Assembly (NCBI GenBank): GCA_020831885.1
Contig: JAFIFU010000037.1
Span: 1 to 34,782, forward strand
Origin: Ectothiorhodospiraceae bacterium
GTDB lineage: Bacteria > Pseudomonadota > Gammaproteobacteria > Nitrococcales > Aquisalimonadaceae
DNA length: 34,782 nucleotides
Reading direction: 5' to 3'
In this document: in pieces, positions 344 to 9,918 of the stretch
How the letters are laid out: every line of letters begins with the position of its first letter
Numbering within the stretch: the first letter of the stretch is position 1
Program-made: the position numbers and the translations under genes
The notes under the pieces: generated by a model
What the model saw: only the letters and a program-made list of their open reading frames with translations
What the model was told of the DNA's origin: nothing
Database searches by the model: none

Positions 344-1168
344 TCAGATGGTCAAACCGCCGCCGACGATGACGGTTTGCCCCGAGATGTAATCGGACTC
401 GGGAGTGCAGAAGAGATACACACCGTTCGCGGCTTCTTCGGGCGTGCCGGGGCGGCCGACCGGAATCATCATGGCCATCCCCTTCGCCATCTTTGACGGG
501 ATGCCGACCGGAATGGCATTGCCGTTCACGTCGATCTGTTTTTTCTCGTCAGTGGCTTCGGTCAGACGCGTCTCGATATAGCCGAAAGCCACACAATTGA
601 CGTTGACCTTCATCCGGCCCCATTCCTTGGCCAGGGTCTTGGTCAGACCCAGGACACCGGACTTGGCGCTGGAGTAGTTGACCTGCCCGGCGTTGCCGCC
701 AGTGCCCGCCACCGAGGAGATGTTGACCACCTTGCGGAACACCTCCCGCCCCTCGGCAGCCTCGGCTTCGGCGGCTTCTCTGATGAAGCCGGATGCCGCG
801 CGCAGAATGCGGAAAGGCGCTTTCAGATGAACGTCGACCATGGCATCGAACTGCTCATCGGACATCTTTCCGATAAAGCTGTCCCAGGTATATCCGGCGT
901 TGTTGACGATAATGTCAACGCCGCCAAAGGTTTCGATGCCGGTGTTGATGAAGCGCTCTGCAAAATCGGCTTCGGTGACACTGCCGGCCACGGCTACGGC
1001 TTGGCCGCCAGCCTGCTGGATCTCTTCCACCACCTCATTGGCTGGCGCCTCGTCCATGTCGTTGACGACGACCGCCGCGCCTTCGGATGCCAGTTTCAGC
1101 GCCACTGCACGCCCTATGCCGCGGCCCGAACCGGTCACATAAGCAGTTTTTCCGTCAAGTTTCTTCAT
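344..1168 (-). CDS. SDR-family 3-hydroxyacyl-CoA/3-oxoacyl dehydrogenase
   Basis: A 274-residue short-chain dehydrogenase/reductase. Visible motifs are the Rossmann cofactor loop TGSGRGIG (12-19), NNAG (89-92) and the catalytic Ser about 152, Tyr165 and Lys169 (YSSAKSG). An Asp at about 37 after the second beta strand suggests NAD rather than NADP. An insertion rich in Glu and Ala (about 131-141) precedes the Ser strand. The ATG at 1168 is chosen because AAAGGA lies 7 bases upstream; an in-frame extension upstream overlaps the acyl-CoA dehydrogenase gene and is spurious. It is last in a four-gene operon, 31 bp after the acyl-CoA dehydrogenase. With a MaoC hydratase beside it, the likely reaction is oxidation of (3R)-hydroxyacyl-CoA in beta-oxidation. 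A FabG-type reductase role cannot be excluded. Confidence 0.85.
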   Translation of the reverse strand: MKKLDGKTAYVTGSGRGIGRAVALKLASEGAAVVVNDMDEAPANEVVEEIQQAGGQAVAVAGSVTEADFAERFINTGIETFGGVDIIVNNAGYTWDSFIGKMSDEQFDAMVDVHLKAPFRILRAASGFIREAAEAEAAEGREVFRKVVNISSVAGTGGNAGQVNYSSAKSGVLGLTKTLAKEWGRMKVNVNCVAFGYIETRLTEATDEKKQIDVNGNAIPVGIPSKMAKGMAMMIPVGRPGTPEEAANGVYLFCTPESDYISGQTVIVGGGLTI

Positions 1169-1199: not shown

Positions 1200-2360
1200 T
1201 CAGTCAATATCAATCGAGCGCGCAACGATCTCACGCATGATTTCGCTCGTACCCCCGTAGATGCGTTGCACGCGGGCATCGGCATAAAGCTGGCTGATGG
1301 GATACTCCTCCATGTAGCCGTAGCCACCGAACATCTGCAGACAGGTGTCAATGGCGCGGCACTGAAATTCAGTAGCCCACATCTTGGCCATTGCGGCACG
1401 TTCCGCGGTCAGGGCGCCTTTTTCCAACTCGCGCGATAGACGGTCCAGGAATGCGCCAAGCATCTCGATTTCGGTCTTGATCTCGGCCAGCTTGAAACGT
1501 GTGTTCTGGAAGTCCATGACACGATTTCCAAAAACCTTGCGTTCGCGCACATGCTCGACTGTCATTGCAAACGCCGTGCGCACCATGCCCAGCGCGATGT
1601 AGCCGAGCATGAGGCGCTCCCAGGGCAATTGGACCATCAACTGCACGAACCCCCGGCCTTCGTGGCCGCCGAGCACATTCGCAACCGGCACCCGCACGTC
1701 CCCAAAAAACAGCTCTGAGGTGTCCTGCGCCTTCAGGCCTAATTTCTTAAGGTTGCGCCCGCGGCGGAAGCCTTCGGCTCCTTCGGTCTCGAGAACCAGA
1801 AGCGAAATCCCCTTTGATCCTGCTTCCGGATCAGTGCGCGCCACAACGACGATCAGGTCCGCATTCTGGCCGTTGGTGATGAAGGTTTTTGAACCATTGA
1901 GCACGAAATGGTCGTCATCACGCTTAGCCGTGGTGCGAATCGATTGCAGGTCCGACCCGGTGCCGGGTTCGGTCATCGCAATCGCGCCAACAAGATCACC
2001 TGAAATCATGCGCGGCAGCCACCGCGCCTTCTGGTCATCCGTTGCCAGTTCCACAACGTAATGCATCACGATGTTGTGGACGCTGAAGCCGAAACCCATG
2101 TCGTGGATGCGGGCCTGTTCCAGCATCGTGACCAGGTCGAATGTGCGTGACAGACCCTGCCCGCCGTATTCTTCGGGTGCCGAGGCGCCGAGGATCCCCA
2201 TTTCGCCGGCCTTGCGCCAGAATCCGAGATCGACGACTCCCGCCTCTTCGTACTTGGCACGCTGGGGCTGATATTCTTCTTCGAAGAACCGCCGCACGCT
2301 GTTGGCATAGGCGTGGTGATCTTCGGTCATCCAGTCATGATCGAGGTGCGGATCGCTCAT
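1200..2360 (-). CDS. Acyl-CoA dehydrogenase (long-chain/branched type)
   Basis: A 386-residue FAD-dependent acyl-CoA dehydrogenase, full length for the family, catalysing alpha-beta desaturation of an acyl-CoA. The FAD/substrate signature AMTEPGTGSD (128-137) and the C-terminal YGGTSEIM are present. The position of the MCAD-type catalytic Glu is Gly, while a Glu lies in QLPWERL (E248), as in long-chain and isovaleryl-CoA dehydrogenases. The start at 2360 overlaps the stop of the upstream MaoC gene by 4 bases (ATGA), which implies translational coupling. The upstream in-frame extension runs into the MaoC gene and is rejected. Electrons would pass to ETF, which is not encoded in this window. 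Confidence 0.9.
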   Translation of the reverse strand: MSDPHLDHDWMTEDHHAYANSVRRFFEEEYQPQRAKYEEAGVVDLGFWRKAGEMGILGASAPEEYGGQGLSRTFDLVTMLEQARIHDMGFGFSVHNIVMHYVVELATDDQKARWLPRMISGDLVGAIAMTEPGTGSDLQSIRTTAKRDDDHFVLNGSKTFITNGQNADLIVVVARTDPEAGSKGISLLVLETEGAEGFRRGRNLKKLGLKAQDTSELFFGDVRVPVANVLGGHEGRGFVQLMVQLPWERLMLGYIALGMVRTAFAMTVEHVRERKVFGNRVMDFQNTRFKLAEIKTEIEMLGAFLDRLSRELEKGALTAERAAMAKMWATEFQCRAIDTCLQMFGGYGYMEEYPISQLYADARVQRIYGGTSEIMREIVARSIDID

Positions 2361-2794
2361 GCGGCTTTCTCCGCTTTCACGACGGCCTCGCCGGCAAGCG
2401 TTTTTGCGGTCTGGCCTTCGGTATCGGTGATCTCGGCAAGCAGCGCGATGCGCAGATGCGGCACACCGTCCTGTTCGAAGCGCTCGATCACCTCGCCGCC
2501 GCAAACAAGCGTCGCATTCACCGGCGTAATTGCCAGGAAACGACTGGACAGGCTCACGATGCGTTCGATCCCGGCCCAGTCGGAGACCACGCGCGCAAGC
2601 ACGCCCATGGATAACATGCCATGCGCGAAAACGTCTGGCATGCCGGCCTTTTTGGCGAAATCGCTGTCGATATGAATGGGGTTATGATCGCCCGACGCCC
2701 CCGCGTAAAGCGCAAGCCGCGTGCGGCTGATGCGCCCGTAGTCAACGGTCGGCAGAACATCGCCCGGCTGGGCAGCATGGATGGATGCTGACAT
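2357..2794 (-). CDS. MaoC-like enoyl-CoA hydratase subunit
   Basis: A 145-residue single hotdog-fold protein of the MaoC dehydratase family. The hydratase-2 motif is intact: YAGASGDHNPIHID (30-43), with the Asp36/His41 dyad that activates water. It lies 11 bp after a second MaoC-type gene and overlaps the acyl-CoA dehydrogenase start by 4 bp. Two adjacent half-size MaoC proteins usually form a heterodimer, as in ChsH1-ChsH2 or HadAB, so this is probably the catalytic partner. Expected product is (3R)-hydroxyacyl-CoA, which suits the downstream SDR. Specificity cannot be read from sequence. Confidence 0.85.
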   Translation of the reverse strand: MSASIHAAQPGDVLPTVDYGRISRTRLALYAGASGDHNPIHIDSDFAKKAGMPDVFAHGMLSMGVLARVVSDWAGIERIVSLSSRFLAITPVNATLVCGGEVIERFEQDGVPHLRIALLAEITDTEGQTAKTLAGEAVVKAEKAA

Positions 2795-2805
2795 GGAATT
2801 CTCCT

Positions 2806-3297
2806 TCAGATAAGGCGGTGAACAAGGCTGCGCGTGATCACAGTCACCAGACCGCGCTGTTCATGGTGAATCTCCGCGCGCAAATGCGCGAGTTCGAGAG
2901 CGCCACCCTTCTTGTCTTCGAAGTCAACGATTTCAGTTGTGACGGTCAGGCGGTCGCCGGCGAAGATCAGACCATGGTAGTCATAGCGTTCCTCGCCGTG
3001 CAGCAGGCGGGCAAGATTGCAGCCGATCAGCGTAAGGATCGAGGGCTTACCGGCACGTTCCGCGGCGCGACCGGTTTCGGTATCCACAACCATGGCAAAT
3101 GTGGGCGGCGCGACGATACCCGGAAAACCGGCCGCACGCGCCGCGTCGGCATCATGGTGGATCGGGTTCATCTCGCCGATCATTTCGCAGAAGAAGGAAA
3201 TACGTCCGGCTTCGACGTCGAACGCTATCGGGTCCGTCTTCATTCCCTTGGTTTCGCGCTTGAAGAACCCTTGCGCGATCTTCGAGGTCTGGCCCAT
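2806..3297 (-). CDS. MaoC-like hydratase partner (FAS1-like N-terminal type)
   Basis: A 163-residue hotdog protein resembling the FAS1-like/MaoC N-terminal dehydratase domain. The hydratase motif is IGEMNPIHHD (40-49): His47 is kept but the usual Asp is Glu42. This fits a structural or substrate-binding half of a heterodimeric hydratase, although activity with Glu is possible. The ATG at 3297 is preferred because GGGAG lies 8 bases upstream; an in-frame GTG at 3306 would add three residues. It is the first gene of the operon ending at 344. DNA upstream is AT-rich with no confident promoter. Confidence 0.75.
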   Translation of the reverse strand: MGQTSKIAQGFFKRETKGMKTDPIAFDVEAGRISFFCEMIGEMNPIHHDADAARAAGFPGIVAPPTFAMVVDTETGRAAERAGKPSILTLIGCNLARLLHGEERYDYHGLIFAGDRLTVTTEIVDFEDKKGGALELAHLRAEIHHEQRGLVTVITRSLVHRLI

Positions 3298-3491
3298 TGA
3301 CAACACTCCCGTTAAAAAAATCTGAGAACTTGGGCAGTCGTTTCAGTTCAAGTGGCACTGATGCGCCCAACCAATTAAAACCCCACCCCAGTTATATGAA
3401 TCAGTTTCCGTGAAGATCTTAAATAGGTAATCTGGCCATCAACAATAATCTGGCACACCCACTAACCTGACAAAAGAACAAACAAACTCAC
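3298..3491. other. AT-rich intergenic region with short direct repeats
   Basis: No gene. It is much more AT-rich than the operon to its left and must hold the promoter for 3297-344 unless transcription continues from the ligase gene. A 9-bp direct repeat TAATCTGGC occurs at 3428-3436 and 3446-3454 (18-bp period, about two helical turns), which could be a regulator site. No clear -35/-10 pair was found. Confidence 0.35.
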
Positions 3492-5057
3492 CTAGTTTAT
3501 TGCTCGCTCCCGATCCTTCCAGTACGCTTCCCGCAGCTCCACTTTTCTCAACTTTCCAGCTCCTGTTACGGGAAAAGGCTCCTGACGGAACTCTACACTT
3601 CGCGGCGCCTTATAAGCCGCAATGTGAGCACGACAATGCTCTATAATTTCTTCCTCAGTCGCCTCTTCTCCATCCTTAAGTCGAACGATGGCATGAACAG
3701 ACTCTCCCCACTGCTCACTTGGTATAGCAATGACAACGGATTGAAGGACCGCAGGATGCATTGATATCACATTTTCCACTTCAACGGAGAACACGTTTTC
3801 TCCACCGGTGATAATCATATCTTTCGCTCGATCGACAAGATAGATAAAACCATCCTCATCCATATAACCAACATCACCGGTCAGGATCCATCCACCTATC
3901 ATTACCGCCCTGGTCTCATCAGGCTTCTTCCAATACCCCATCATTGTGTTGGGACCTTTAACCGCGATTTCCCCAACGAATCCCCTTTCAACTTCCTCAC
4001 CGTTAGCGTCTCGAACCTCAACATTCACGCAGTATCCCGGGCGCCCGGCCGATCTAATCTTCCCGGTTCCCGTTCCGTCCAGTACGTGATATTTGGAAGA
4101 AAGAATGCTGCAAAGTGGCCCCAACTCAGATTGTCCGTAGGCCTGGACGAAACCCACATGAGGAAGCGACTCTATGGCCTCCCTGAGCGTACCTATAGGC
4201 ATTGGAGAAGCACCATATACAATGGTCCTAAGAGAGCTCATATCAGCTGTCGAAAGCGTTGTGTCCGTAAGCAACATGCTGATCATTGTTGGTACCAGTA
4301 ACGTGTGGGTAACCTTGTGCTCTTCAGTGGCGCGGATAACAGAGGAAGGCTCGAAGAACGGAACGAACACGTGCGTCATGCCACCGATCGTTGCTGATTG
4401 GGAGAATGCCGCATCGGCCAAATGAAACATCGGTGCAGCGTGTAGGTACCTGCCGTCTTCATCCGTCAACCGTACATCGGCCATTACGGAAATTGCGCTG
4501 GTCCACAGGTTGCGGTGCGATAGCATTACTCCCTTAGGGAAGCCGGTAGTTCCGCCTTTATAGAATATTCCCACAAGACTATCGTAACCCTGTTCGGCCG
4601 GCGGACACGCCGTGCCCTCCTTGATCAACTGCTCGAAGCTAACCATACCCTTGGGCGTCTCTTTTTCACCCATGTACACAGCAAGGTGAATCTTTCCAGC
4701 CTCACGCAGAAGCTCCTGTCCCATCTCCAGAAACGCATCATCGACAAATAATACGCTACATTCGGAATCCTCAAGAGCGTAAACATTTTCCCTGAATGAC
4801 CATCGGATATTTAAAGGAACAAGCACCCCTCCCATCCATGGAACCGCATAGAAATATTCCATATAACGAGCTGAGTTCAGCGCTAGTATCGCGACATGAT
4901 CACCTGCATTTACGTTATGTGCAATTAAACCACTGGCAAGCTTCTCCACTCGCGCCTGCGTTTCGGCCCAAGTACTCTCCCGACCAGAACAGACAGTCGC
5001 GATGTTATTGCTCAGAATTTTTGCATTGCGTTGAATAGCGTTATAGATGTACACCAC
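3492..5057 (-). CDS. AMP-forming acyl-CoA ligase (FadD/FadD3-like)
   Basis: A 521-residue member of the adenylate-forming superfamily, which activates a carboxylic acid to an acyl-CoA via an acyl-adenylate. The P-loop is YKGGTTGFPKG (166-176), with Gly where Ser is commonest; the YGQSE motif, the hinge region GDVGYMDEDG and the catalytic Lys of GAGKLRK (about 502) are present. Translation starts at one of two consecutive GTG codons (5057 or 5054) behind AGGAG. Codon use is AT-richer than in the flanking operons and similar to the next two genes to the right, suggesting shared, possibly foreign, origin. The substrate is unknown; neighbours point to a branched or cyclic acid. Confidence 0.9.
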   Translation of the reverse strand: MVYIYNAIQRNAKILSNNIATVCSGRESTWAETQARVEKLASGLIAHNVNAGDHVAILALNSARYMEYFYAVPWMGGVLVPLNIRWSFRENVYALEDSECSVLFVDDAFLEMGQELLREAGKIHLAVYMGEKETPKGMVSFEQLIKEGTACPPAEQGYDSLVGIFYKGGTTGFPKGVMLSHRNLWTSAISVMADVRLTDEDGRYLHAAPMFHLADAAFSQSATIGGMTHVFVPFFEPSSVIRATEEHKVTHTLLVPTMISMLLTDTTLSTADMSSLRTIVYGASPMPIGTLREAIESLPHVGFVQAYGQSELGPLCSILSSKYHVLDGTGTGKIRSAGRPGYCVNVEVRDANGEEVERGFVGEIAVKGPNTMMGYWKKPDETRAVMIGGWILTGDVGYMDEDGFIYLVDRAKDMIITGGENVFSVEVENVISMHPAVLQSVVIAIPSEQWGESVHAIVRLKDGEEATEEEIIEHCRAHIAAYKAPRSVEFRQEPFPVTGAGKLRKVELREAYWKDRERAIN

Positions 5058-5219
5058 TCGCTCTCCTTTCTTGAACGCCTTGACGGTTTTTATTCATTGA
5101 ACACAAAAAACGAAAAAATGAAATACAGAATAAAAAATGCATCGTAACCATCCCAAGAAGAAATCCGTTTTACGATCCAAGACAACCATGAGCGTCAAGT
5201 GCAGTGCTATATTAAAGGT

Positions 5220-5291
5220 TTAAATCTTGGGCTTCATGGGCCAAACCATAGCCGCAAACCCGCCGCGAATGGCTTCCATTACCACGGACAT
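5220..5291 (-). other. Possible 23-aa small ORF or gene remnant
   Basis: A 23-residue minus-strand frame, ATG at 5291 and TAA at 5220-5222, with a plausible AAAGAG four bases upstream. The peptide contains AIRGGFAAMVWPMKPK. Its base composition is more GC-rich and more coding-like than the DNA around it. I do not recognise the peptide. It may be the surviving C-terminus of a lost gene, a real microprotein, or chance. Confidence 0.2.
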
Positions 5292-5391
5292 GATCTCTTT
5301 CGCCTTTTATATTTTTCTGCGGTTCCGATTGCAAGGAACTCCTGATTCATGAGGATCATCTAATGCAATCAACAAAAATCACTAGGAAAGT

Positions 5392-5433
5392 TCCCGGTCA
5401 CGAACCTGCCTATTATCCAGTGAGTGACCGGGA
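5392..5433 (-). terminator. Inverted repeat, probable terminator of the dctP-like gene
   Basis: TCCCGGTCAC (5392-5401) and GTGACCGGGA (5424-5433) are perfect 10-bp reverse complements around a 22-nt loop, about 40 bp past the stop of the leftward TRAP binding-protein gene. Read leftward, the hairpin is followed by ACTTTCC and then a T-rich stretch. The long loop also leaves an operator role possible. Confidence 0.5.
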
Positions 5434-5471
5434 TGTTTGCGCGCTAGTTTAAAGAGTCTTTTCCCGCCCCT

Positions 5472-6626
5472 TCATAGACCGTGTTTAGCCACATCGACTT
5501 TGGAAAATGCTTCATCCCAGTACAGCTGAGCAAGATCCTCCGCATTATCTATACCGGAGACGAGATCAACCCAACGCTCCAAGAGTTCATTGAACTTCTG
5601 CAGCATCTCTTCAGCATGTTCGATATTGTGCCGGGAAGCGTAATAGTCCAGCACGGTCTTCAGGTCTTCCTCAGTAAACTTTCGCGTAGCCTCAATAAGT
5701 TCTTCATCAGCTGAAAGTACTTCGTTACCCCGGGCCCGAACCTCATCGAGCATTTCCTCTCCAATATTCATATAACCAAAAGTCGTCTCAGCACTTAGTA
5801 CAGTCTTTGCACGGAGGAAATCCCGCCTCTGATCTTCAGTCAGGCTCGCCCAAACGTCCCGATTAATGTTGTTGGAGATACCTGAATAAATGCCACCAGG
5901 CACATCCATATTGACGTGGGTCGCTTGTTCTACAAGCCGGATGTTATGGAGCTCGGGAGCGGACTGGATTGTACAGTCAATGACGCCCTGCCCCAGGCCT
6001 TCATATATCTCCCCGTACGTCAGGGAAAGCGACTGCGCTCCGAAGTGGGCGGCCCAGCGCGACCAGTGAGTACCCGCAACCCGCAGCCGTTTTCCTCTCA
6101 CATCCGCCACGGAGGTGATGGGCGTTGTGCACAGCAAGCCGTAGCGTGAACTACCGGCCACTCCGGCAAACACTTGGTTCTGTGCGGCATACTCTGCGTT
6201 GCATTCCGGGCAATGGAGAAATAGAAATTCGTTCTTGGCGCCTATATACGCCATCACTTCCTCCATCTCATCAACACCCTCCAGCAGGTTTAACTGCATG
6301 GAGCTGTCGTTAATGAGGTTTGTATGAGGGTACTCACTCGGAAAATAGGCGGTAAGCACCGGACCTGCATCAGCGAGGCCATCTCGCAGTCCTGCGGACA
6401 TCTCTGCAAAATTTAGTAACGAGAGTGGGAACACCCGTGCTGTGAGTTCCCCGCCTGTGTACTCCCCCAAGGCCTCCGCGAATGCTTCCGCTGCCCGCAC
6501 TGGGTCAGAACCTGGCGCTGATCCCGTTGCGTAATTCAGGGTCCGAGCTGAGGATGCGGTACTCATGAGGGCAACGACACCAATACTGGCCGCAGCAACA
6601 ACAGCGAGTTTTCTTAGCATTTTCAT
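5472..6626 (-). CDS. TRAP transporter substrate-binding protein, DctP family
   Basis: A 384-residue periplasmic binding protein of the DctP/TRAP family. Residues 1-27 form a Sec signal peptide (positive start, hydrophobic core, Ala-rich cleavage region ending SSA). The conserved ligand-anchoring Arg region is LRVAGTHW (about R182), followed by the family pattern YGEIYEGLGQGVID. A CPEC pair (139-142) is unusual and could be a disulphide. The ATG at 6626 has GGAGGAG upstream. No DctQ or DctM membrane gene lies beside it, so it is an orphan: it either uses permeases elsewhere or the 29570-31591 permease, although the latter is of the TAXI type. It sits between two ligase genes, implying capture of the acid those ligases activate. 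Confidence 0.9.
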   Translation of the reverse strand: MKMLRKLAVVAAASIGVVALMSTASSARTLNYATGSAPGSDPVRAAEAFAEALGEYTGGELTARVFPLSLLNFAEMSAGLRDGLADAGPVLTAYFPSEYPHTNLINDSSMQLNLLEGVDEMEEVMAYIGAKNEFLFLHCPECNAEYAAQNQVFAGVAGSSRYGLLCTTPITSVADVRGKRLRVAGTHWSRWAAHFGAQSLSLTYGEIYEGLGQGVIDCTIQSAPELHNIRLVEQATHVNMDVPGGIYSGISNNINRDVWASLTEDQRRDFLRAKTVLSAETTFGYMNIGEEMLDEVRARGNEVLSADEELIEATRKFTEEDLKTVLDYYASRHNIEHAEEMLQKFNELLERWVDLVSGIDNAEDLAQLYWDEAFSKVDVAKHGL

Positions 6627-6681
6627 CTACTTCTCCTCCATACCGTGACTATTGAATCATCGTTCCGGTTTTCAGTACTTT

Positions 6682-6717
6682 TATTTAGGAGCATTTTCCT
6701 GAGTCTCAAATCGAGAC
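6682..6717 (-). promoter_or_regulatory. Putative promoter and operator of the dctP-like gene
   Basis: On the minus strand a -35-like TTGAGA (6704-6709) is separated by 16 bp from a -10-like TAAATA (6682-6687), about 55 bp before the dctP-like ATG. The -35 box lies within an inverted repeat GTCTC-N5-GAGAC (6703-6717). The sequence ATCGAGACAAA (6710-6720) recurs at 6788-6798. A repressor covering the -35 box is the simplest reading. The regulator is unknown. Confidence 0.4.
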
Positions 6718-6849
6718 AAAACCTCCCGAAAATCAAGACTACATTGCCAATAAAAGTTGCCCTCCAACTAGAAGAACACCCTCTAATATCGAGACAAACC
6801 AAGAACAACAAGTGGGAAAATTTTTCTTATTTTAACTGAGCGATCTCAC

Positions 6850-8406
6850 TTATATTTTACGGTCGCGATCCTCCCAAAACCCATCCCGAATTCGACGTTT
6901 TAGAACCTTCCCCACCGGACTCCTGGGAAGACTATCCCAAACTTCTATTGATTTTGGGGCTTTAACTCCACCAAGCCTTTCACGGCAATAAGAAATTATT
7001 TCATCCGGTTTGGCATCGCTGTTCGCCTTAAGCTCAACGACGGCCATAATGGCTTCGCCCCATTTATCATCCGGAACACCGATCACAGCGCAGTCTTGCA
7101 CTGCTTTGTGCGAAAGTAGCACTTCCTCAACCTCGGTGGAATAAACATTGAACCCACCGGTAATTATCATGTCTTTTTTTCTGTCAACGATGAAGACGTA
7201 ATCGTTCTCATCCTTGTAGCCTAGGTCGCCGGTGTGGTGCCAGCCAAATGCGGAGACGGCAGCGGTGGCTTCTGGGTTCTTGTAATACCCTGGAAAAACA
7301 AGCTTTCCTCTTGCGACGATCTCCCCCACCTCACCGGGCCCCAGAAGCTGCCCTTCGTCGTCCATGATCTCTACTCGGCTGAACATGGTGGGGCGGCCAC
7401 AGCTCCGTAAGAGGTGTGCGTCACCTTCGTTGACGATAGCTCTCTGGTGATCCTCCCTGGAAAGAAAAGTGAGAAAGAATGGCGCTTCTGCTTGGCCAAA
7501 CGCCTGGCAGATCACAGGCCCAAACGCCGCGACAGCTTCCCTAAGTTTCTCTGACGATACGGGCGCTGCCGAGATAAGAAGAAACTGGAGTGATCTGGTA
7601 TCGTAACGACCTAATTCCGGGCTGGCCAACAACATGTAGAGCAGCGTTGGTGGCAAGAACAGATGGGTTACGCCGTAGCGTTCAATCGCTTCCAGTATGC
7701 TCGTCGGATCAGGTTTGTTCAGAATAATATTCGATGGGCCTCGAGGCATGAGCATAAGGGACAGCACACCGGCCGCATGTGTCATTGGCGCCACGCACAG
7801 ATGCACGGGGTTCTCAATAGGAGGGGCAGATGTCCAGAAACTTGCGATGAGTGTTTCCCAAACCTGGTTGGTCAGAACGACACCCTTGCTACGGCCCGTC
7901 GTGCCGCCAGTCGGTGCGAGTGTGCACGGGCGCTGGGCATCATCTGGTATCTCCAACACCTCACCATGGCTGGCGGCTGTGACATGATCGAGCGACGGGC
8001 CCAGTTGGCCCTCTTTATCCAGGCAGATAAAACCCCTGATGCCTTTCACCGACTGGTGGATTTTCCGAACTTGTTCCTCAAAATCACTGTGATAAAAAAC
8101 AAATTCCACGTCCGCCGTTTCCGCAAAGGCGATATTCTCCTCCACAGTATTTCTTGCATTCAATGGAACCCAGGCTCTGCCAGCCCCGAATATTCCCAAC
8201 ATAGCAAAAAATGCCCTTGCGTCGTTGGGACTGTAAACGGCGATATTAGCCGTTTCGCTGACATCCATTGACTGAATCGCTGCAGCCAATTTTTTGCTTA
8301 AAACCGCAACCTCATGATATCGATAACTGTATCCATTTGGCTGCATGAAAGCCATGCGATCAGGGTAGCGTTTTGCAGCCATTTCAAAGAAATCGATAAG
8401 TTGCAT
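6850..8406 (-). CDS. AMP-forming acyl-CoA ligase
   Basis: A 518-residue adenylate-forming ligase, full length. The P-loop is TGGTTGRSKG (166-175), again with Gly replacing the common Ser; the hinge region HTGDLGYKDENDY and the C-terminal GKVLKR (Lys about 500) are intact. The start is set at the ATG at 8406, behind GGAG seven bases upstream; an in-frame upstream Met at 8430 lacks this. It resembles the ligase at 3492-5057 in architecture and AT-richer composition, and the two flank the dctP-like gene. Likely role is CoA activation of the acid bound by that protein. Specificity is not readable. Confidence 0.9.
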   Translation of the reverse strand: MQLIDFFEMAAKRYPDRMAFMQPNGYSYRYHEVAVLSKKLAAAIQSMDVSETANIAVYSPNDARAFFAMLGIFGAGRAWVPLNARNTVEENIAFAETADVEFVFYHSDFEEQVRKIHQSVKGIRGFICLDKEGQLGPSLDHVTAASHGEVLEIPDDAQRPCTLAPTGGTTGRSKGVVLTNQVWETLIASFWTSAPPIENPVHLCVAPMTHAAGVLSLMLMPRGPSNIILNKPDPTSILEAIERYGVTHLFLPPTLLYMLLASPELGRYDTRSLQFLLISAAPVSSEKLREAVAAFGPVICQAFGQAEAPFFLTFLSREDHQRAIVNEGDAHLLRSCGRPTMFSRVEIMDDEGQLLGPGEVGEIVARGKLVFPGYYKNPEATAAVSAFGWHHTGDLGYKDENDYVFIVDRKKDMIITGGFNVYSTEVEEVLLSHKAVQDCAVIGVPDDKWGEAIMAVVELKANSDAKPDEIISYCRERLGGVKAPKSIEVWDSLPRSPVGKVLKRRIRDGFWEDRDRKI

Positions 8407-8430
8407 GGGTAATCTCCATATGCGAATCAC

Positions 8431-8733
8431 AAGCTCTACGATGGCGATTGATTGTGATCAGCGTTTTCGCATAACCGGTACAGATGCCTATGGCTAAGCC
8501 AGAAAATAGCGGCCTATACCAACAACCCGCCGCCGATAGTATTTGTTTTCCCCGAAATATAAATTTATTCGGGTTTGGATAAACGATTGATCCCTTTAGC
8601 GATTCTGCTCAGGCGGATCGGTTTTCCTTTTCAGGCATCCTTGCCTACACACCACGGGCAATCTTTTTCGGCGTTGACAGCGAGCAACGACTGTTTGTGT
8701 CTGATAACTGATATATCGATCCCGCTCGCCACC
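8431..8733. other. Intergenic region containing a decayed SDR gene end
   Basis: No intact gene. On the minus strand 8514-8627 is the recognisable C-terminal remnant of an SDR gene, described separately. The rest (8431-8513 and 8628-8733) shows no convincing coding signal. The region marks the junction between the AT-richer ligase/dctP block and the GC-richer thiolase gene. Confidence 0.6.
8514..8627 (-). pseudogene. SDR dehydrogenase pseudogene, 3' end only
   Basis: Reading leftward in one frame gives about 37 codons that line up with the C-terminus of the intact SDR at 344-1168 without gaps: GKP for GRP, then an Ala and a Gly at matching positions, PE, then YISGKT for YISGQT, and IGGGL for VGGGL before a stop at the matching distance. 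An internal TAA replaces the codon after PE. No Rossmann loop or active-site segment is visible upstream, so most of the gene is gone. It lies downstream of the thiolase on the same strand, where a beta-oxidation operon would carry a dehydrogenase. Confidence 0.7.
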
Positions 8734-9918
8734 TCAGCCCGCCGTGTAAAGGGTGACCACGCAAGCACCGCCCAGGCCGAGGTTATGCTGCAGCGCTGTG
8801 CGTGCACCCTCCACTTGGCGCTTATCTGCGGTTCCTCGCAGTTGGTTGGTCAACTCATAGCACTGTGCCAGGCCGGTGGCGCCCAACGGGTGCCCTTTTG
8901 AGAGCAATCCCCCCGACGGATTCGTCACCACCTTTCCGCCAAAGGTGTTGTCGCCATCGGCGATAAACTTCGGTGCTCCGCCCTCCGGGCATAAACCCAG
9001 GGCCTCATAGGTGATCAGCTCGTTGTGCGCGAAACAATCGTGCAACTCAACAACATCCAGGTCCTCCGGACCGACGCCGGCCTGTTCGTAGACCAGCGCA
9101 GCCGCATCTCTCGTCATGTCGTATCCGACGAGTTGCATCATGTCGTTTGCTTCAAACGTGCTGGGGGTATCGGTTGTCATCGCCTGACCGGCGATCCGCA
9201 CACTGGTGCGCAGCCCATGCCTTTCGGCGAACGCTTCCGAGACGATCAGTGCCGCTGCAGCACCACAGGTTGGCGGGCAGGCCATGAGCCTGGTCATAAC
9301 ACCCGGCCAGATGACCTGCGCATTGAGCACGTCGTCCTCACTGACTTCTGTGCGGAACAAGGCCAGTGGGTTATGCGCCGCATGACGGCTGGCCTTGGCG
9401 CGAATGCGTGCGAAATCCCTGAGAGTGCTGCCGTACTTCTCCATGTGTGACTTGCCCGCCCCGCCGAAATATCGCAGCGCCAGCGGGATCTCATCGTGGC
9501 CCACCAGTTCTGCAGTTTTCTCGTCGAACGACTCAAAGGGGCTTGGACGGTCCGTCCACACATTCCCGAGTGCGCCTCGCTGCATGGTTTCGAAGCCAAG
9601 CGCCAGTGCGCAATCAATGGCGCCAGACGCGACTGCCTGCCGGGCCAGGAAGAGCGCGGACGATCCCGTGGAGCAATTGTTGTTGACGTTGACGATGGGA
9701 ATGCCGGTCATACCCGCCCGGTAGAGCACGTTCTGTCCGCAGGTGCTGTCACCGTAAACGTAGCCGGCATAGGCCTGCTGGATCAGGCCGTATTCAAGTC
9801 CGGCATCGGCCAGCGCATCCCGCACCGCTGCAACACCGGAGACTGTATAGGGTTCATGTTCTCCGGGCTTTGTGAACTTCGTCATGCCCACACCAGCCAC
9901 ATACACGTTGCGGTTCAT
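8734..9918 (-). CDS. SCP2-type thiolase (acetyl-CoA acyltransferase)
   Basis: A 394-residue thiolase of the SCP-x/SCP2 branch, cleaving 3-oxoacyl-CoA in the last beta-oxidation step. The nucleophile Cys82 lies in NNNCSTGSSA, the SCP2-type HDCFAHNE motif is at 293-300, His343 in GHPLGATG, and the second catalytic Cys386 in GLGGAC. All catalytic residues are therefore present. SCP2 thiolases act on branched and sterol side-chain substrates, unlike FadA. The ATG at 9918 has AGGAAGGAG upstream. It is divergent from a TetR gene (147-bp gap), which is a likely regulator, and is followed by the SDR remnant. Confidence 0.9.
   Translation of the reverse strand: MNRNVYVAGVGMTKFTKPGEHEPYTVSGVAAVRDALADAGLEYGLIQQAYAGYVYGDSTCGQNVLYRAGMTGIPIVNVNNNCSTGSSALFLARQAVASGAIDCALALGFETMQRGALGNVWTDRPSPFESFDEKTAELVGHDEIPLALRYFGGAGKSHMEKYGSTLRDFARIRAKASRHAAHNPLALFRTEVSEDDVLNAQVIWPGVMTRLMACPPTCGAAAALIVSEAFAERHGLRTSVRIAGQAMTTDTPSTFEANDMMQLVGYDMTRDAAALVYEQAGVGPEDLDVVELHDCFAHNELITYEALGLCPEGGAPKFIADGDNTFGGKVVTNPSGGLLSKGHPLGATGLAQCYELTNQLRGTADKRQVEGARTALQHNLGLGGACVVTLYTAG

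Follow-up and report, generated by a model that had tools for sequence, protein, structure and literature searches.

A probable remnant of an SDR gene between the thiolase and acyl-CoA ligase genes of an Ectothiorhodospiraceae bacterium

The minus strand sequence at positions 8514–8627 is very probably a pseudogene remnant, the decayed 3′ end of a short-chain dehydrogenase/reductase (SDR) gene that belonged to a thiolase-SDR-ligase block. The DNA analyzed (the window, 34,782 nt) is contig C78 in its entirety; the draft genome to which it belongs has 4.13 Mb in 129 contigs. The fossil is read as a genuine gene loss because a sister species of the same genus, genome G002, keeps an intact SDR gene in that place. 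The features of the window that are relevant here are as follows.

344–1168, minus strand: SDR344, an intact SDR gene of the same clade as the relic, from motifs and comparison (TGSGRGIG at residue 12, NNAG at 89, YSSAK at 165)
1200–3306, minus strand: MaoC, MaoC and acyl-CoA dehydrogenase (ACAD) genes of the left operon, which ends in SDR344, from open reading frames and NCBIfam relatives
3492–5057, minus strand: second acyl-CoA ligase gene, the next gene in both the window and G002 (56% to G002)
5472–6626, minus strand: gene for a DctP-type solute-binding protein, the next gene in both the window and G002 (73% to G002; NCBIfam NF037995, above cut-off)
6850–8406, minus strand: acyl-CoA ligase gene, intact, adjoining the relic on its downstream side (79% to the ligase at the corresponding position of G002)
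8514–8573, minus strand: core of the SDR relic, the last 20 codons including the TAG stop and the internal TAA, from DNA scores and in-register protein scores, with the codons checked
8574–8627, minus strand: probable but weak 5′ continuation of the relic, the first 18 codons, from in-register shuffles (not significant as DNA)
8628–8733, minus strand: remainder of the spacer after the thiolase stop; a gapped DNA alignment with the G002 SDR gene extends to 8702, and this part alone is not significant
8734–9918, minus strand: lipid-transfer-type (SCP-x-like) thiolase gene, intact, adjoining the relic on its upstream side (NCBIfam NF006102, 684.6 bits, cut-off 436)

The thiolase and acyl-CoA ligase genes are both on the minus strand and are separated by a spacer of 327 nt, in which the SDR fragment is found on the same strand. 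Read from position 8627 to 8514 the fragment has 38 codons. The frame is disabled by an internal TAA at 8567–8565 and by loss of the 5′ part of the gene, and it ends with a TAG at 8516–8514. A preliminary description, made from the sequence alone, had reported that about 37 codons align without gaps with the C-terminus of SDR344 and share several motifs with it. The alignment is borne out: 15 of 37 residues and the terminal stop are identical, there are no gaps, and the ungapped BLOSUM62 score is 69. The fragment is thus homologous to the C-terminal end of SDRs of this clade and ends at the same stop position. One of the listed motifs, however, is not shared letter for letter, as YISGKT is the spelling in the fragment and SDR344 has YISGQT.

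The match also stands far above background. In 1000 dinucleotide shuffles of positions 8431–8733, translated in six frames, the mean score is 28.8 (sd 3.5) and the maximum is 45. To allow for chance hits elsewhere, six-frame translations of all 16 window spacers of at least 60 nt were set against 28 genes of the window (2688 comparisons); the fragment and SDR344 ranked first. The runner-up scores 49 and involves a different gene at the same stretch; the best score at any other place is 42.

Against SDR344 the last 20 codons of the fragment score 56 and the first 18 codons score 13; against the G002 SDR these values are 58 and −1. As DNA, the core at 8514–8573 scores 40.0 with the G002 SDR gene and 38.0 with SDR344, each reached by 0 of 500 shuffles, and its protein score held in register is reached by 0 of 5000. 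Positions 8574–8627 alone score no better than chance as DNA (their value is attained by 263 of 500 shuffles with the G002 gene and by 114 of 500 with SDR344), and the longer segment 8574–8702 is likewise inseparable from chance. When the first 18 codons are held in register, the protein score is reached by 4 of 5000 shuffles with SDR344 and by 119 of 5000 with the G002 SDR. The remaining part of the spacer, 8628–8733, taken alone as DNA has its score reached by 105 of 300 shuffles (G002) and 276 of 300 (SDR344); its protein score with SDR344 is 34, which 4 of 100 shuffles reach. The interval 8514–8627 as originally proposed has a correct 3′ boundary and a soft 5′ one, and only about 60 nt of relic are demonstrable by themselves.

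As judged from its sequence, the fragment is an SDR relic and not a present-day SDR enzyme. It matches only residues 238–274 of the 274 in SDR344, which are distant from the nucleotide-binding motif and the active site, and for this reason it cannot be an enzyme. The classical SDR motifs are TGxxxGxG, NNAG and the active-site YxxxK. Neither TGxxxGxG nor NNAG is present in the six frames of 8407–8733. Two YxxxK strings do occur there, YISGK in the relic and YANHK on the other strand; these are not the active site because the relic aligns to residues 238–274 and the YSSAK of SDR344 is at residue 165.

A Pfam search with the fragment in either form, with E-values up to 10, gives no SDR family; the fragment corresponds only to the tail of the profile. 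A profile was made from 42 SDR C-termini (SDR344 and the G002 SDR included), and 2,971,450 windows of 19 codons were scanned with it, the window copies being excluded. The fragment scores 26.5 and another SDR of the same genome 27.5. Besides the fragment, the entries scoring above 14 are SDR genes, as judged by eye from their letters and places. Other proteins of the window (MaoC, ACAD, ligases, DctP, thiolase, TetR) show no match to the spacer beyond their shuffles, the lowest count being 9 of 100. Identity of the fragment with SDR344 at the three codon positions is 24, 22 and 14 of 38; because SDR344 is itself constrained, this pattern gives no date for the loss.

In a separate observation, a plus strand frame at 8407–8513, i.e. 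on the strand opposite to the fossil, scores 36 with SDR344 (0 of 100 shuffles, null maximum 35). This is probably chance among 27 tests. The spacer has a GC content of 44% and neighbouring spacers have 39–43%, so that low GC is unspecific. The left-block spacers at 3307–3491, 5058–5471, 6627–6849 and 8407–8733 are all AT-rich (39–47% GC, compared with 61% for the window), and the ligase gene at 6850 has 51.5% GC. Foreign origin or further decayed genes are possible reasons.

The intact counterpart is in G002. Three genomes of the genus were searched by DNA, and an 80% match at the thiolase end was found in G002, on contig C191 (6783 bp). The gene order there is thiolase, 7 bp, SDR, 125 bp, ligase, DctP, ligase, and this order and strand recur in the window, with the fossil at the place of the SDR. 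The G002 SDR gene is intact, encodes 277 residues with 74% identity to SDR344, and lies between the thiolase and the homologue of the ligase at 6850. The proposal that the block once had a dehydrogenase of its own, now lost, is supported by this synteny. Contig C191 ends inside the thiolase gene and synteny at that end consists of the last 72 residues, which are 97% identical. On the other side, the G002 ligase has 79% identity to the ligase at 6850, DctP has 73% to that of the window, and the second ligase has 56% to the one at 3492.

Alignment of the whole spacer as DNA with the G002 SDR gene runs from about nt 653 of the gene to its stop codon and scores 61.0 (shuffle maximum 36.5, 0 of 300). 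With the genes used as controls (three: an unrelated SDR, the ligase and a MaoC) the spacer DNA gives no score above their own shuffles. The distance from the thiolase stop to the SDR or relic stop is 220 nt in the window and 841 in G002, a net loss of about 620. The fossil and the G002 SDR gene are identical at 62 of 114 nt without gaps, compared with 85 of 114 for SDR344 and the G002 gene over the same codons. The lower value for the fossil is as expected after relaxed selection. As protein, the fossil matches SDR344 better (69) than it does the SDR in the syntenic place of G002 (57). Fourfold sites of the window and G002 are near saturation, 31–43% being identical. The sequence between the SDR end and the ligase, 8407–8513, is unconserved with respect to G002, as 247 of 300 shuffles reach its score.

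The region has also been reshuffled, because for both DctP and the second ligase the G002 copy is nearer to a module on contig C24 of the window's own genome (84% and 84%) than to the window (73% and 56%). This module (C24:1466–6265, locus L126) is a second ligase-DctP-ligase set with 74%, 73% and 55% identity to that of the window; no SDR relic above shuffles is found upstream of it. In G002, two small genes follow the second ligase at C191 209–828 (locus L134), which are taken by eye from the sequence to be a HigB/HigA-like toxin-antitoxin pair; the window has the MaoC operon at that location. The own genome also has a second thiolase gene (C70:9311–10483, loci L003 and L127) of 73% identity. 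It is followed by a different gene, presumably DctP-like, and by one for a presumably TRAP-like permease, both named by eye. Within the 16 kb taken at this locus there is no SDR with more than 27% identity to SDR344.

A thiolase search of 59 genomes (the own genome and 58 relatives) at E 1e-60 finds the own genome only; it missed the G002 copy, which is cut by the contig end. In the congener G001, whose assembly is 88% complete, SDR matches reach at most 46% and thiolase matches at most 32%. A class-wide search with the ligase at 6850 finds 7 of 369 genomes at E 1e-90, the best outside the genus being 50%, and no copy of the block closer than that of G002. Plasmid searches likewise give no copy closer than that of G002.

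Linkage of thiolase and SDR genes was analyzed outside the genus in the best 80 loci from other genomes, chosen by thiolase. A downstream SDR on the same strand with at least 60% identity to SDR344 is present in 41 of these: 33 have the order MaoC-MaoC-SDR, three have MaoC-MaoC-ACAD-SDR, and five have the SDR directly after the thiolase. Of the others, 26 have ACAD directly after the thiolase without such an SDR, nine have other arrangements and four have too little sequence. Among the nine, ACAD again comes directly after the thiolase in L039 and L060, where the alignments show an overlap of a few bases; in L014 there is MaoC-MaoC, and its SDR has only 35%. Two annotated plasmids, of Roseovarius indicus and Sulfitobacter, show a lipid-transfer protein followed by an SDR. 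An SDR downstream of the thiolase is common, and the direct thiolase-SDR order exists outside the genus too. Two loci show split matches. At L013 (11260–12389) the ACAD homologue matches as two overlapping pieces of 51% and 58%, which suggests a frameshift or a sequencing error. At L012 (6421–6928) a ligase homologue lies upstream of the thiolase; it is matched in no more than two overlapping pieces and is perhaps a broken gene.

The gene order of the left operon is also found in L019, L057 and L080, and its MaoC and ACAD genes resemble those of L019-type loci (47–49%, 57–59% and 62–63%). The left operon may have come from outside or have arisen by duplication. The best NCBIfam relatives of SDR344, a classical SDR, are FabG models, below their cut-offs. 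The window thiolase groups with that of L004 (support 99/94), and the window TetR is closest to the TetRs of L004 and L013 (47–48%). An SDR tree of the window and G002 sequences with 31 of the 41 outside SDRs has a polytomy at SDR344, the G002 SDR and the outside relatives.

Taken as a history, the ancestral block very probably had the order thiolase, SDR, acyl-CoA ligase, DctP, acyl-CoA ligase on one strand, as kept by G002. In the window lineage the SDR gene then acquired stops and base changes, with a net loss of about 620 bp. Comparison of the two loci shows that the last 20 to 38 codons were left as non-coding spacer, with the thiolase and ligase flanks intact. The most likely reason would be redundancy with SDR344 (344–1168) in the MaoC-MaoC-ACAD-SDR operon of the same block, a plausible cause that draws on one species pair. 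The suggestion that the left-operon copy covers the step would fit the situation in G002, where the single close SDR of the clade is the thiolase-linked copy and the other hits, with E-values up to 1e-30, have 46% identity or less. There is also no close relative of the left-operon gene MaoC2357 in G002 (best 29%). From these SDR and MaoC2357 searches of the draft assembly, the left operon is likely absent from G002; relatives of ACAD1200 with 54% identity are present both there and in G001. In the own genome, 39 places match SDR344 at E 1e-10 or better and all but SDR344 itself have 46% or less.

In a beta-oxidation route the lost enzyme would probably have served as the 3-hydroxyacyl-CoA dehydrogenase, because the set consists of ligase, acyl-CoA dehydrogenase, MaoC hydratases, SDR and SCP-x-type thiolase; this draws on the gene set and on knowledge of the families. 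A tentative extension, somewhat short of an even chance, is that two partial beta-oxidation operons of different origin are fusing. The thiolase-SDR-ligase-DctP-ligase set would have joined the MaoC-MaoC-ACAD-SDR set, the redundant resident SDR may have been pruned, and one dehydrogenase would now serve both halves.

Other origins of the fragment have to be weighed. It could be a shortened copy of SDR344 that came from the left operon and not the thiolase's own dehydrogenase, and the protein score is indeed highest with SDR344 (69; the next locus reaches 59 and the G002 SDR 57). This is nevertheless very unlikely, given the intact SDR in the same slot of G002, the better fit of the whole spacer DNA to the G002 gene (61.0, compared with 49.5 for SDR344) and the slight preference of the core DNA for it (40.0 and 38.0). 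Among the repeats listed, none of at least 18 nt joins both places in the same orientation. A shade less probable is a broken or failed import, with the G002 gene gained independently and the SDR never used by the block in the window lineage. The closeness of the G002 DctP and second ligase to C24, and the polytomy of the SDR tree, would be in keeping with such a history, but slot, order and strand are identical in the window and G002, and the SDR lies directly after the thiolase outside the genus in five of the best 80 loci and in the two plasmids.

Retention of the stretch for a function between thiolase and ligase, for instance as a short peptide, a regulatory element or an RNA element, is given very little credence. 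The spacer does lie upstream of the ligase start and has two weak terminator-like patterns (shuffle mean 0.7), both on the plus strand, opposite to the operon; against this, the frame has an internal stop, no promoter-like site was found in the spacer, and 8407–8513 is unconserved in G002. Least credible of all is a chance resemblance of non-coding spacer to an SDR tail. The missing Pfam hit and the chance-level DNA score of 8574–8627 would agree with it, but the score of 69 compared with a shuffle maximum of 45 and the first rank among 2688 comparisons speak against it, and it is considered refuted by the syntenic intact G002 gene with its DNA score of 61.0 (null maximum 36.5). The decayed 3′ end of the block's own SDR gene remains the preferred reading.

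This is an ordinary bacterial gene fossil and its biology is modest. Its added value is the before-and-after pair, i.e. the intact gene in G002 and the relic in the window, which suggests that a genome with another SDR of this clade can dispense with the dehydrogenase linked to the thiolase. There is also a hint that, in this organism, the thiolase may rely on an SDR whose gene lies some 7.5 kb off within the block. In addition, reading of the raw sequence caught a relic with about 60 significant bases, which was missed when the fragment was scanned with Pfam. A literature search found no paper on a thiolase-SDR-ligase operon with the terms used.

In G002 C191, the Sulfitobacter plasmid NZ_CP040754 and the Roseovarius plasmid NZ_CP031599 the SDR gene is directly after the thiolase gene and on the same strand. 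The fossil shares the C-terminal end motif with these thiolase-linked SDRs, but it is what remains of a dead gene, reduced to its end. SDR344 and the G002 SDR are of the same clade, with 31 identical letters in the last 38 codons (stop included); SDR344 differs from the fossil in being intact and in its place in the MaoC-MaoC-ACAD-SDR operon. Remnants of pseudogenes in intergenic spacers are a well-known kind in bacteria (e.g. PMC522871, PMC3164680). The present fossil, a short decayed piece with an in-frame stop, a large deletion and intact neighbours, does not differ from these in kind; here an intact gene in the same genus documents the state before the loss.
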